Source: Mycobacterium sp. GA-0227b (lineage in GTDB: Bacteria > Actinomycetota > Actinomycetes > Mycobacteriales > Mycobacteriaceae). Taken from it: a DNA stretch of 64,000 bases. The translations under genes and the position numbers were made by a program. Position 1 is the stretch's first letter. Every line of letters begins with the position of its first letter. Of the stretch, positions 59,514 to 63,216 are shown piece by piece. The notes beneath the pieces were generated by a model. The model was not told the DNA's origin. It saw only the letters and a program-made list of their open reading frames with translations, and made no database searches. Location: the NCBI RefSeq assembly GCF_001499855.1, contig NZ_LQIK01000001.1:1-64000 (forward strand). Direction: 5' to 3'.

Positions 59514-60233
59514 CTACTTCCACGCGAAGACCGGTTGCTCGAGTTCGTCCACCGGATCGTGGCGGCCTTCCAGGCACCACCACCGCAGTTGCAGAAGCAC
59601 CGCGCCCGTCGGCGCGTGGATCAGGTCATTGCCCAGCGGTACCTGCACCACCGGTCGCGGGCTCTCGGGGATCTCGATGAACCGCGGCGAGTCGTCGCGC
59701 TGCAGCTGGTGTAACCCGACCCGGTACACCGCGACCACCTCATCGGGCGCCGGTCGCGGATCGAGCCGGCCGCCACCCCAGAGCACCACCGGGGTGATGA
59801 CGTATCCGGATCGCGTCGGATAGTCGTCGAGCAGGCCCAGCACCGTCGACTCCGGCAGCCTTACCCCAACCTCCTCGTCCAGCTCGCGCAGTGCCGCGTC
59901 GATCACGGTCTCCCCAGCGTCGAGCCGGCCGCCGGGCAGCGCCCACTGCGCGGCGTGCGATGTCAATCGGGATGCCCTGCGACACAACAGGAAAGCCGCG
60001 CCGCCCGAGACGTCGACCATGCGTCCGTCGAGGCCGGCTTCCGGCATCGGGCGCCCGTCGATCCAGTCGTCGACGTTCGCCGGATCCACCCGGTCCTCAC
60101 CGACCTCGGAATCGACGAGCACCACGGCGACCGCCGCGTGCCTCTTGGTCGGGTCGGTCACCGCGCGACGCCGGTGTCCCGACAGGTTCGCCCTGATCCG
60201 CTCGCGCAGCGCATCGTCGTAGGAGATCGTCAC
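59514..60233 (-). CDS. Nudix hydrolase, CoA-pyrophosphatase-like
   Basis: 239 residues. Full Nudix box GGRLDAGETVIDAALRELDE then EVGV. The preceding LLCRRASRLTSHAAQWALPG resembles the NuCoA motif of CoA diphosphatases. N-terminal about 90 residues are an extra helical/acidic region. GTG start at 60233 with a -10 box 6 nt upstream. An in-frame extension to 60797 runs antisense through the repeat gene and is rejected. Confidence 0.87.
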   Translation of the reverse strand: MTISYDDALRERIRANLSGHRRRAVTDPTKRHAAVAVVLVDSEVGEDRVDPANVDDWIDGRPMPEAGLDGRMVDVSGGAAFLLCRRASRLTSHAAQWALPGGRLDAGETVIDAALRELDEEVGVRLPESTVLGLLDDYPTRSGYVITPVVLWGGGRLDPRPAPDEVVAVYRVGLHQLQRDDSPRFIEIPESPRPVVQVPLGNDLIHAPTGAVLLQLRWWCLEGRHDPVDELEQPVFAWK

Positions 60234-60239
60234 CGCTTG

Positions 60240-60245
60240 ACCATA
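60240..60245 (-). promoter_or_regulatory. -10 box TATGGT for leaderless Nudix gene
   Basis: Minus-strand TATGGT ending 6 nt before the GTG at 60233. Confidence 0.45.
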
Positions 60246-60324: not shown

Positions 60325-60573
60325 ATGGCACTCGACGACGACGACATCACCACGTCAGGCGCAGAAGGCGAAGGGCCGGCCGACGGCGGCTCGAATCCGG
60401 AGGGCCACGACGGCGGCGCAGACGGCACCGCTGGCGGTGAAGGCCCCGCTGACGGCGGCTCCAACCCCGAAGGCCACGACGGCGGCGCAGACGGCACGGC
60501 CGGCGGTGAAGGCCCCGCTGACGGCGGCTCCAACCCCGAAGGCCACGACGGCGGCGCCGACGGAACCGCCTGA
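60325..60573 (+). CDS. Acidic Gly/Asp-rich protein of three 23-residue repeats
   Basis: 82 residues: a 14-residue leader (ALDDDDITTSGAE after Met) followed by three nearly identical 23-residue units, the last one residue short. Each unit contains GEGPADGG, SNPEGHDGG and ADGT. No Cys, no aromatic, no hydrophobic core: disordered. GGAAGGG precedes the ATG by about 7 nt. The stop lies 21 nt before the JmjC oxygenase start on the same strand, so the two are probably one operon. The short leader plus repeated Asn/Asp/His-rich units resembles a multi-core substrate peptide. Confidence 0.75.
   Translation: MALDDDDITTSGAEGEGPADGGSNPEGHDGGADGTAGGEGPADGGSNPEGHDGGADGTAGGEGPADGGSNPEGHDGGADGTA
60367..60573 (+). 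repeat. Three tandem 69-bp coding repeats
   Basis: Units at 60367-60435, 60436-60504 and 60505-60573. The second and third are almost identical; the first has more silent differences, so recent duplication of the last two is likely. Confidence 0.85.
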
Positions 60574-60594
60574 TCCCTTCCAATTCTGAGCCCG

Positions 60595-61798
60595 ATGCTG
60601 ACGCGCTGCGTTGCGACCGATGCTCGACGGTTCGCCGACGAGTACTGGGGTCGCAAACCGTTGCTCAGCCGGGCCGACGCGTTACCCCGCGACTTCAGTG
60701 ATCTGTTGTCTCCCGACACGGTTGACGAGTTGATCGCCGAGCGCGGGGTGCGCGCGCCGTTCATCCGGCTGGCCAAAGAGGGTGACGTCCTGTCCAAGGA
60801 CTGCTATCTCGGGCCGGCTGGGTTCGGCGCCGAGATACCCGATCAGATCGACTCCGCGAAGCTGCTGAGCCAATTCGTCTCCGGCGCAACGATTGTGCTG
60901 CAGGGTCTACACCGGTTGTGGCCGCCGCTCATCGCTTTCGTCCGCCAGGCCGTCGACGAGCTCGGTCATCCGGTACAGGCCAACGCCTACGTCACCCCGC
61001 CGGTCAATCGCGGCTTCGACCCGCACTACGACGTGCACGACGTCTTCGTCTTGCAGGTCTCGGGCCAGAAGCGCTGGATCGTGCACGAGCCGGTCTTCGA
61101 GCACCCGCTGCCGTGGCAACCCTGGACACAGCATCGCGCCCAGATCGAGAAGCGGGTCGCCGACGCACCGGTCATCGACACTGTGCTGTCCGAAGGTGAC
61201 GCGCTCTATCTACCGCGGGGCGCAGGCCCTGCAGATGACCTCGATCCACCTCACCATCGGGGTGGCGCCGGTGACCGGTGTCGACGTGGCCCGCGCCGTC
61301 GTGGACCAGTTGGCGAGCACCGCGTCGTTCCGGGAGTCACTGCCGATGGGCGCCTCGGACGCCGATGAGACGATGGCGAAGGTGAGCAAGGTCATGGCGC
61401 AGATGGTCGGGGCGTTGCGGGATGAGGCGGCGACGCTCAGCGCAGGCGCCGCCGCGCAACTGTCGCGGCGTCACGCCGACAGGACCCGTCCTGTCGGCGT
61501 CCGCCCGTTGGCGTCGCTCGCGGCGGCCGATCGTGCCGCCGACGCGGTGGCGCAATGGCGACACGGGCTCTCCGCGACCGTCGACCGAACCGATGACCGC
61601 ATCGTCCTGCGCCTGCCCGACCGGACCATGACCTTCCCGCAGACGTGCGAAGACGCGGTCCGGACGCTGCACCTCGGAGGCGTCGTCGATGCGACGAGCC
61701 TGCCGGGTCTCGACCACGCTGACGCGACCGTCCTGATCCGGCGGCTGCTGCGGGAGGGAGTCGTCGTTCCGGTGACCTTCCCGGCCGACGCCGGATGA
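60595..61798 (+). pseudogene. JmjC/cupin 2-oxoglutarate oxygenase (YcfD/No66-like), frameshifted
   Basis: Two frames together encode a whole protein of about 400 residues. Frame 1 from ATG 60595 has EYWGRKPLL, then the metal motif HxD in DPHYDVHDVFVLQVSGQKRW, and reaches LYLPRG at about 61218. The homologous sequence continues in another frame from about 61220 (AQALQMTSIHLTIGVAPVTG) to 61798, giving the winged-helix C-terminal region. The family motif LYLPRG-x-x-H, which supplies the third iron ligand, is missing at the junction. A net loss of 3n+2 bases (11 fits) explains both. Frame 1 alone ends at 61368 as a 257-residue chimera without the last ligand. Likely inactive, unless the assembly is wrong here. 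Confidence 0.85.
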
Positions 61799-62688
61799 CC
61801 GCCGCGAAGCGAATCCCGTGCAGCGACCAGTCGCTGGCCCGCGACGACCCGATGTACGGCACGGCGTCGGCGGGGTCGTCGTGGGTGCTGCTCGAGTTGA
61901 GCGGGGCGTGGGGGCCGTCGGCGTTCCTGCAGTCGCCGAACTGCATCGACCCTCAACTCGGCCGCGCCATCGTCCGCCGTGTCGAGAAGGCGGGCATGCG
62001 CATTGCGGCCATCCGACGGCATGGTCGCCGCCCCGACATTCCCCGATGGCGCTGGTACATAGCGCACTCCGGCGTCGGCAGCGAGGCGCTGCACCATGGA
62101 GAGGTCACGGGCCCCGACGGATTCCTCGAACTCGCCCTCGACGGCAGCGACGGGCAGTTGTCCACCGATCCGCTGATCGCGATCTGCTCGCACGGCAAAC
62201 ACGACCAGTGCTGCGCGGTACGGGGCCGCAGCGCATGCAGTGCGATCACGGCAGAGTTCCCCGAATTCACCTGGGAGTGTTCACATCTCGGCGGCGACCG
62301 CTTTGCCGCCACCATGCTCGTCCTGCCCGAAGGGCTGTGCTACGGACGGGTCGACTCGACCGATTCGGCTGGGCTGGTGCGCCTGTATCTCGACGGACGG
62401 CTGGACAACCGGTTCCTGCGCGGGCGCACATCGCTACCGCATGCCGTGCAGGCCGCGCAGTACTTCGCCCGCGAGCGCAACGGCGACGACCGCATCGACG
62501 CGCTGCACCCGCTGCACGTCGAGCGCGGAGAACATCGGATCCGCGTTCTGCTCGATGGCGGGGCGGGGCCGATCGAGGTGATCCTGCACGAGGAATTGTC
62601 CGAACCCCTGCTGTCCCAATGCCATGCCCAGGTCGCCGGCCAGGTCCGCATCTTCACGCTCGGGTCCCTGGGTTCTGCCGACGCTTAG
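61795..62688 (+). CDS. Sucrase/ferredoxin-like family protein
   Basis: 297 residues of the Suc_Fer-like (thioredoxin-fold ferredoxin-like) family. CSHGKHDQCCAVRG and the later WECSHLGGDRFA segment are the family's core and could bind a [2Fe-2S] cluster through these cysteines. ATG overlaps the end of the oxygenase frame as ATGA, so it belongs to the repeat-peptide/JmjC operon. Function unknown; an electron carrier is plausible. Confidence 0.85.
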   Translation: MTAAKRIPCSDQSLARDDPMYGTASAGSSWVLLELSGAWGPSAFLQSPNCIDPQLGRAIVRRVEKAGMRIAAIRRHGRRPDIPRWRWYIAHSGVGSEALHHGEVTGPDGFLELALDGSDGQLSTDPLIAICSHGKHDQCCAVRGRSACSAITAEFPEFTWECSHLGGDRFAATMLVLPEGLCYGRVDSTDSAGLVRLYLDGRLDNRFLRGRTSLPHAVQAAQYFARERNGDDRIDALHPLHVERGEHRIRVLLDGGAGPIEVILHEELSEPLLSQCHAQVAGQVRIFTLGSLGSADA

Positions 62689-62725: not shown

Positions 62726-62764
62726 ATACATGTATGTGCTATGCATACTTTGTGACGCCGTCAC
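62726..62764. promoter_or_regulatory. Palindrome cluster at the MarR gene start
   Basis: ATACATGTAT (62726-62735) is a perfect palindrome, TATGCATA (62740-62747) another, and GTGAC-GCC-GTCAC (62752-62764) a third over the start codon. GTATG/CATAC arms also face each other across this region. Autoregulatory MarR operators often look like this. Confidence 0.5.
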
Positions 62765-63216
62765 GATACGACCAACTCGACGAACTGCTGACCCGCATCG
62801 CCATAGCGCGGCAGCGACCGAGTTGGCGGGACCGCCTTCTCGCCGGTGCCGGCCCGGTGACCAGCGCGTCCACCCTGCGGGTACTACGAGCGGTCGAGCA
62901 GTGCCAACAGCTTTCCGGCGGGGCCTCGATCCGCGAGGTCGCGGACTTCATGGCCGTCGAGCACTCGACGGCCAGCCGGTCGGTCGCCGCCGTCGTGAGC
63001 GCGGGCCTCGTCACCAAGACGTCCGCCGCCGATGACCAACGGCGGTGCACGCTGGTGCTGACCGAGGCGGGTCGTCAGGCGCTGGAGATCGTGGCCAGCC
63101 GGCGGCGCGACCTTGTCGCTGAGGTGATCGCCGACTGGCCCGAAGCCCGCGTCGACACTCTGGTCGAACTCCTCGACCGGCTGACCGAGCGATTCGAACG
63201 CGCGGCGGCCCGATGA
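62752..63216 (+). CDS. MarR-family transcriptional regulator
   Basis: About 154 residues. Winged helix with SIREVADFMAVEHSTASRSV as helix-turn-helix and DDQRRCTLVLTEAGRQAL as the wing and last helix. Start GTG 62752 (TPSRYDQL) is preferred; ATG 62734 in frame would add six unusual residues (MCYAYF). Neither has an SD, so it is probably leaderless. The stop overlaps the MFS start as ATGA, the usual regulator-exporter pairing. Confidence 0.87.
   Translation: MTPSRYDQLDELLTRIAIARQRPSWRDRLLAGAGPVTSASTLRVLRAVEQCQQLSGGASIREVADFMAVEHSTASRSVAAVVSAGLVTKTSAADDQRRCTLVLTEAGRQALEIVASRRRDLVAEVIADWPEARVDTLVELLDRLTERFERAAAR

Follow-up and report, generated by a model that had tools for sequence, protein, structure and literature searches.

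Among oxygenases of the PF08007 (JmjC_2) type, NO66 and MINA53 act on fixed ribosomal-protein targets, and YcfD/RoxA is the Arg81 hydroxylase of ribosomal protein L16. For NO66 and MINA53 we know of no adjacent gene for a repeat peptide or for a ferredoxin-like partner. JmjC-type and other hydroxylases have been linked to ribosomally synthesized and post-translationally modified peptides (RiPPs). PbsQ and BpmG/BipG, the JmjC/cupin hydroxylases of the biphenomycin RiPPs, hydroxylate a ribosomal precursor encoded nearby (PMC12257519, PMC12707348). SmaO is an Asp beta-hydroxylase of a graspetide cluster, as cited in PMC13097080, and another study describes domains resembling RiPP recognition elements on fish and algal PF08007 proteins, together with bacterial homologues in RiPP-like contexts (PMC12710340). 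Here we analyze a cassette of three genes in a stretch of 64,000 nt of Mycobacterium sp. GA-0227b (contig NZ_LQIK01000001.1), hereafter the window, to which all coordinates refer. A small gene for an Asp/Gly-rich repeat peptide is followed by a JmjC gene and by a gene for a Suc_Fer-like, ferredoxin-type protein. We propose, with a confidence somewhat better than even, that the repeats serve the adjoining NO66-like JmjC enzyme as a dedicated substrate and that this enzyme would hydroxylate their Asp side chains. The genes and the break that affects one of them are as follows.

60325..60573, plus strand: gene for the Asp/Gly-rich repeat peptide, the likely substrate; 82 aa, with leader MALDDDDITT and three identical 22-aa units.
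60595..61224, plus strand: JmjC gene, first piece; PF08007, with the HxD iron ligands; leaves the family frame near 61219.
61214..61798, plus strand: JmjC gene, second piece, in another frame; positions 219-408 of the clade model, including the C-terminal beta/helical domain seen in the model of a relative, L032.
61219..61224, plus strand: break site of the JmjC gene; 14 bases found in L119, L120 and L121 are absent, and the third iron ligand is read by neither piece.
61795..62688, plus strand: gene for the Suc_Fer-like (PF06999) protein, 297 aa; predicted thioredoxin-like [2Fe-2S] ferredoxin domain at about 123-217.

The first-pass annotation of this DNA had placed the JmjC gene 21 nt after the repeat gene and had given the third gene an ATGA overlap, and the coordinates and family matches bear out both points. 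The JmjC start at 60595 lies 21 nt past the stop of the repeat gene, and the ATG of the Suc_Fer-like gene overlaps the TGA that closes the second JmjC piece. The first JmjC piece matches PF08007 with an E value of 7.8e-21 (74.4 bits, curated cut-off 22) and the Suc_Fer-like gene matches PF06999 with an E value of 4.4e-16 (60 bits, curated cut-off 34.9); a search of the genome found one match to each family. A Pfam search with the second JmjC piece returned no family, and no RNA family reached its gathering score between 59000 and 64000.

After its 10-residue acidic leader, MALDDDDITT, the window peptide carries three copies of the 22-residue unit GEGPADGGSNPEGHDGGADGTA, which are identical as protein and differ in DNA by synonymous changes. 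The same annotation had described an acidic protein with a short leader and three repeats, which stands, and had called it rich in Asn, Asp and His, which does not: with 27 Gly, 13 Asp and 11 Ala the peptide is Gly/Asp/Ala-rich, and His and Asn occur just three times each. Selection acts on the protein sequence, since 29 retrieved copies of the gene, all of 82 aa (some from one genome fetched twice), show 26.4 synonymous and 10.2 non-synonymous codon differences per pair, despite the 190 synonymous and 548 non-synonymous changes among all possible single-base changes of the window gene. This codon test rules out a chance origin of the repeat open reading frame (ORF). The peptide matched no family in Pfam or NCBIfam and has 157 homologous proteins at E <= 0.001; the 120 matches listed are named 'hypothetical protein' and, once, in Leifsonia poae, 'BatC protein'. 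The motif [HA]DGGADG occurs in 2 to 4 copies in the 73 named genes counted, and an acidic leader [DE]DD[IM] recurs in peptides that had been picked by such a leader. A small gene-encoded precursor under selection adjoins an enzyme of the modifying type, an arrangement that fits a RiPP locus.

The gene order is conserved across Actinomycetota, which supports a functional pairing. We named 80 loci, the top 80 among 590 confirmed matches obtained with a query assembled from enzymes linked to repeats. All 80 have the repeat sequence directly upstream of the JmjC gene, 74 of them as a clean open frame; the other six are frame-shifted (L033, L054, L081), contain unknown bases (L064, L103) or are cut by a contig start (L106). 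A survey of the order is less biased than this count. It covered 298 genomes, with strong JmjC matches (E below 1e-100) in 169, weak matches (2.1e-53 or worse) in 21 and none in 108. A profile of 14 repeat peptides, applied at 1e-5, matched 124 of the 169 strong genomes and no genome of the weak (0/21) or JmjC-free (0/108) groups, an association with a Fisher p of 8e-46 when kinship between genomes is ignored. Among the 45 strong genomes without a profile match, divergent repeats were seen in 10 and in 30/30 whose upstream DNA was fetched, the repeat of one (L174) being cut by a contig end. The repeat is therefore present in 164/164 strong-clade genomes examined of the 169, a count that leaves out G068, G076, G084, G088 and G094. 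As to position, all 111 comparable profile matches (of 124) lie upstream of the JmjC gene on the same strand, with a gap of -44 to 445; in G104 and G222, where the best match is on another contig, the second-best match was used. Together with the window, G053 and 40 loci read by eye, this makes 153 genomes of known position with the repeat directly upstream, and for the other 11 of the 164 only presence in the genome was shown.

The repeat occurs in 22/22 strong genomes of the window's own family; in its genus, the enzyme match is strong in 16, weak in 5 and absent in 18 of 39 sampled genomes. The suggestion that other mycobacteria would carry repeat genes directly upstream of intact JmjC genes thus holds far beyond mycobacteria, and the opposite pattern, JmjC homologues usually lacking a repeat gene, is not what these loci and genomes display. 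A survey of the phylum (396 genomes, the order included; JmjC match at 1e-60 in 38) added 19 loci, including two whose genomes the order survey had already covered, with eight further matches without a locus left out. Asp-rich repeats lie upstream in 17 of the 19. In a tree of 39 enzymes, rooted by midpoint only, the repeat-linked enzymes are split by a long branch from the mycobacterial PF08007 proteins L016, L017 and L031. Since the linked enzymes form one clade, the pairing appears old in Actinomycetota. Plasmid carriage was considered and dropped; plasmid records matching the enzyme number 90, all under 60% identity, and 68 are from Streptomyces.

As modeled for the relative L032 (predicted local distance difference test score 91.5, predicted template modeling (TM) score 0.87), the enzyme has the fold of the ribosomal oxygenases NO66, MINA53 and YcfD. 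Foldseek ranks NO66 best (4ccn, E 1.3e-24), followed by MINA53, YcfD and B. subtilis YxbC; against NO66, the TM score is about 0.65-0.71, with a root-mean-square deviation mostly of 5.6-6.5 and about 21% identity. A profile search likewise gives NO66 at an E value of 1.1e-26 and YcfD at 4.4e-9 (E. coli) and 9.3e-11 (Rhodothermus). All 80 named loci retain the active-site residues H144, D146, K159 and H212. The ribosomal-oxygenase family carries a C-terminal winged helix, and the C-terminal 100 residues of L032 are predicted as beta strands and helices. In this part or next to it, six Arg residues (305, 310, 329, 389, 390 and 393) recur in 20-22 of 22 aligned rows; our guess is that they might bind the acidic leader. 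The 120 matches listed for the enzyme bear database names such as 'cupin', 'ribosomal protein L16 Arg81 hydroxylase', 'putative ribosomal oxygenase' and 'NO66'.

Which residue would be modified? We counted residues in 108 distinct peptides from 134 entries, after dropping peptides of at least 200 residues and one duplicate locus. Cys is absent from every core, Arg from 95 cores, Asn from 14 and His from 8. In addition, the distant loci L154-L161, whose upstream peptides were picked by acidity, have repeats such as DGDASDASDGDA, where Asp stands with Gly, Ala, Ser, Thr and Val and where His and Asn are almost absent; these loci still have a Suc_Fer-like neighbour and cluster with the clade. His, Asn and Arg thus look like poor candidates for a general target, because they are absent from many cores and because the L154-L161 repeats are nearly free of His and Asn. 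We also made a choice of peptide blind to Asp, taking the frame that ends just upstream of the enzyme with the highest guanine-plus-cytosine content at third over second codon positions. In 100 of 123 loci, at least four Asp occur in the stretch chosen. Among 110 distinct stretches obtained in this way, four or more copies are found of Asp in 87, Thr in 50, Ser in 49, Glu in 32, Arg in 21, Asn in 7 and His in 6. From these compositions, Asp is most likely the general acceptor, which narrows the choice of His, Arg, Asn or Asp given in the first-pass annotation; by the counts alone, Ser or Thr may also serve as acceptor.

Based on these elements, we may hypothesize the following mechanism. The C-terminal domain would hold the acidic leader (D-D-D-I-x-T) and the Gly-rich repeats would thread through the active site, presenting one acceptor after another and leading to several hydroxyls per chain. 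The Asp beta carbon would be the most likely site, and His or Asn of the mycobacterial-type unit may be hydroxylated in addition. The ferredoxin-like protein may be a helper that keeps the enzyme iron reduced, or may use the modified peptide in a later redox step. Since the cassette is accompanied by no widely shared gene for export or proteolysis, the product would be an intracellular or passively released, acidic, metal-binding peptide. A bolder version, which we put forward only tentatively and consider possible but doubtful, is that poly(beta-hydroxy-aspartyl) repeat peptides, each with one dedicated JmjC enzyme and a ferredoxin-like partner, occur phylum-wide as a metal-binding polymer of everyday actinobacterial physiology, and not as an occasional natural product. 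Such a class, carried by over half the genomes sampled in the order, would have gone unrecognised because its enzyme is labelled cupin or ribosomal L16 hydroxylase.

Several observations weigh against Asp hydroxylation of a dedicated substrate. The linkage count of the 80 named loci is biased, since they were chosen by similarity to a repeat-linked query. In the phylum sample, L150 has no repeat upstream and L151 has an acidic, non-repetitive protein there (2/19 loci); both are nested inside the repeat-linked clade and are therefore read as two losses. The presence of Asp in 108/108 peptides was set aside as support for an Asp acceptor: the argument is circular, because the peptides had been picked by Asp-containing motifs and an acidic leader. 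For 23 of the 123 loci, the Asp-blind choice gave another, Asp-poor frame or ORF. The main objection is that the names of the nearest solved relatives are those of His (NO66, MINA53) or Arg (YcfD) hydroxylases and none is named for Asp, so that the choice of Asp comes solely from conservation of the repeats. Residues 306-404 of L032 are only slightly basic, with a net charge of +1. The Suc_Fer-like gene was not found in L092, L109 and L110 of the 80 named loci, and no widely shared protease or transporter was seen in flanks of up to 3.5 kb around these loci, among proteins of at least 100 aa; the multi-core peptide of the first-pass annotation is thus no more than a possibility.

Other explanations may be considered. 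The pairing may be right with GHDGG and GGSN as the motifs whose His and Asn are the main acceptors, Asp giving charge only. Histidyl-hydroxylase is the name given to NO66 and MINA53, the segments that they target are rich in Gly, and His is present in 100/108 and Asn in 94/108 of the distinct cores; we nonetheless find this version unlikely, in view of the loci L154-L161, whose repeats are almost without His and Asn and which still keep both the Suc_Fer-like neighbour and membership in the clade. The enzyme might also be a true ribosomal oxygenase, acting on His or Arg, with the repeat peptide as a regulator or a decoy in its peptide groove. Fold and sequence adjoin those of NO66, MINA53 and YcfD, the L16 Arg81 hydroxylase label is among the database names, and a tightly binding repeat would likewise stay linked. 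A ribosomal target, however, would need no repeat gene, and one is present in every clade genome examined; upstream of L016, L017 and L031, from the same genus and outside the clade, no peptide with Asp repeats is seen; and among solved structures the profile places the eukaryotic NO66 and MINA closest, not YcfD. Taken together, these points make a ribosomal target quite improbable. There is, finally, some resemblance between Asp-rich Gly loops and metal-binding sequences, and the lack of a widely shared leader protease would fit an unmodified acidic protein for metal binding or storage, the oxygenase and the ferredoxin-like protein acting on a metabolite that it delivers. We regard this as very unlikely: solved members of the family are named protein hydroxylases, and the link persists across the order and the phylum while the repeat sequence changes freely. 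Hydroxylation of the repeat Asp by the adjoining enzyme is therefore the reading that we retain.

In the strain analyzed here, the cassette has probably lost its enzyme, judging from its reading frames. The JmjC oxygenase of the first-pass annotation is confirmed as a gene of the PF08007 family and not as an intact frame: the clade profile finds it in two pieces in different frames, model positions 6-216 at 60589-61221 and 219-408 at 61214-61774. Alignment with L120, L119 and L121 shows 14 bases absent near 61219; L112, the most distant of the four sequences compared, aligns at the break as 2 + 12 bases, with other differences. The H-x-D motif is present, and the third iron ligand went with the 14-base loss and is unread in either frame. 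A length difference of 14 bases is not typical of a homopolymer error, and an assembly error may be the source of the gap. The JmjC match is unbroken over more than 370 model positions in 79 of the 80 named loci. The exception, and the sole broken enzyme among them, is L090 (Gordonia polyisoprenivorans), where the match is split near model position 334.

Other irregularities concern the repeat gene. It is frame-shifted in L033, L054/L011 and L081 with the JmjC match unbroken, which may reflect repeat slippage or assembly errors. Extra repeat-peptide matches were observed on second contigs, at G104:C9:47-283 and G222:C92:21139-21249, one of them near a contig end; these are perhaps second cassettes. 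In the case of L150 and L151, the former has a Suc_Fer-like gene and the latter is without it; losses, or a substrate elsewhere in the genome, are possible.

A Suc_Fer-like gene comes next in 77 of the 80 named loci and is present in 149 of 161 loci overall, a set that counts some genomes more than once and takes in the window as well as three loci from outside the clade. Modeling gives middling support for a thioredoxin-like fold of this third protein, and a Foldseek search with the model returned no match at 0.001. All ORF clusters shared by at least 11 of the 80 named loci overlap the cassette (enzyme, Suc_Fer-like gene, repeat gene or other frames of these), and the largest clusters outside it cover 10, 8 and 8 loci. 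In the window, a gene for a MarR-type regulator (62734-63216, plus strand) lies 45 nt past the Suc_Fer-like gene and overlaps the next gene, which begins at 63213 on the plus strand and encodes a membrane protein resembling a major facilitator superfamily (MFS) transporter by inspection of its sequence. Neither is widely shared across the 80 loci; we leave the MarR and MFS genes outside the cassette because clusters beyond it cover at most 10 of the 80 loci. On the minus strand, at about 59514-60240, a divergent gene contains the box GGRLDAGETVIDAALRELDEEVGV, which we take to be a NUDIX-like motif; this gene is not a widely shared neighbour.

We also searched the upstream regions of 139 loci for a box of the IdeR/DtxR type. 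Eight lie at 5-6 mismatches of 19, where mononucleotide shuffles would give 0.6. Iron regulation through such a box was rejected as a general feature, since the eight loci form two clusters of related mycobacteria, some fetched twice. A Zur-like pattern upstream hardly departed from its shuffles. In L008, L061, L063, L067, L069 and L094, we observed, about 117 bases ahead of the repeat gene, TTAGG..AGCCGTACCTTC, a stretch 5-6 mismatches away from the IdeR-type box and seen in one related mycobacterial group only.

If our proposal is correct, many genes named 'ribosomal protein L16 Arg81 hydroxylase' or 'cupin' have a substrate other than the one in their name, and a NO66-type JmjC enzyme takes its place in bacterial peptide modification. 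The substrate would be one of variable repeat number, and the product a natural polymer rich in hydroxy acids that would chelate metals. A very common actinobacterial gene pair would become directly testable.

In the accessible parts of the open-licence literature we found no description of Asp-repeat peptides with JmjC and Suc_Fer-like genes, and a search of open-licence literature for the repeat motif strings and for 'BatC protein' returned no paper. Each of the systems introduced above shares some features with the cassette. YcfD/RoxA is of the PF08007 type and provides the database label put on this clade; it differs by a profile match weaker than that of NO66, and the repeat cores here are mostly Arg-free. 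RRE-like domains on PF08007 proteins recall the predicted beta/helical C-terminal domain of our enzyme, whereas a repeat peptide, Asp modification and a Suc_Fer-like partner do not appear in the accessible part of that study. In biphenomycin biosynthesis, PbsQ and BpmG/BipG hydroxylate one ornithine, after steps by a multinuclear non-heme iron-dependent oxidative enzyme (MNIO) and an arginase, within a multi-enzyme cluster; in contrast, the cassette combines one oxygenase, Asp-rich repeats and a ferredoxin-like protein. SmaO, according to the paper that cites it, acts on the N-terminal part of a graspetide precursor, followed by conversion by SmaX; the likeness is Asp beta-hydroxylation in a ribosomal peptide, which for our cassette is predicted from genes. 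With NO66 and MINA53, finally, the enzyme shares the fold, the H-x-D...H and Lys columns and a membership among protein-acting enzymes, at a low level of identity and with a putative substrate encoded next door instead of a fixed ribosomal protein.
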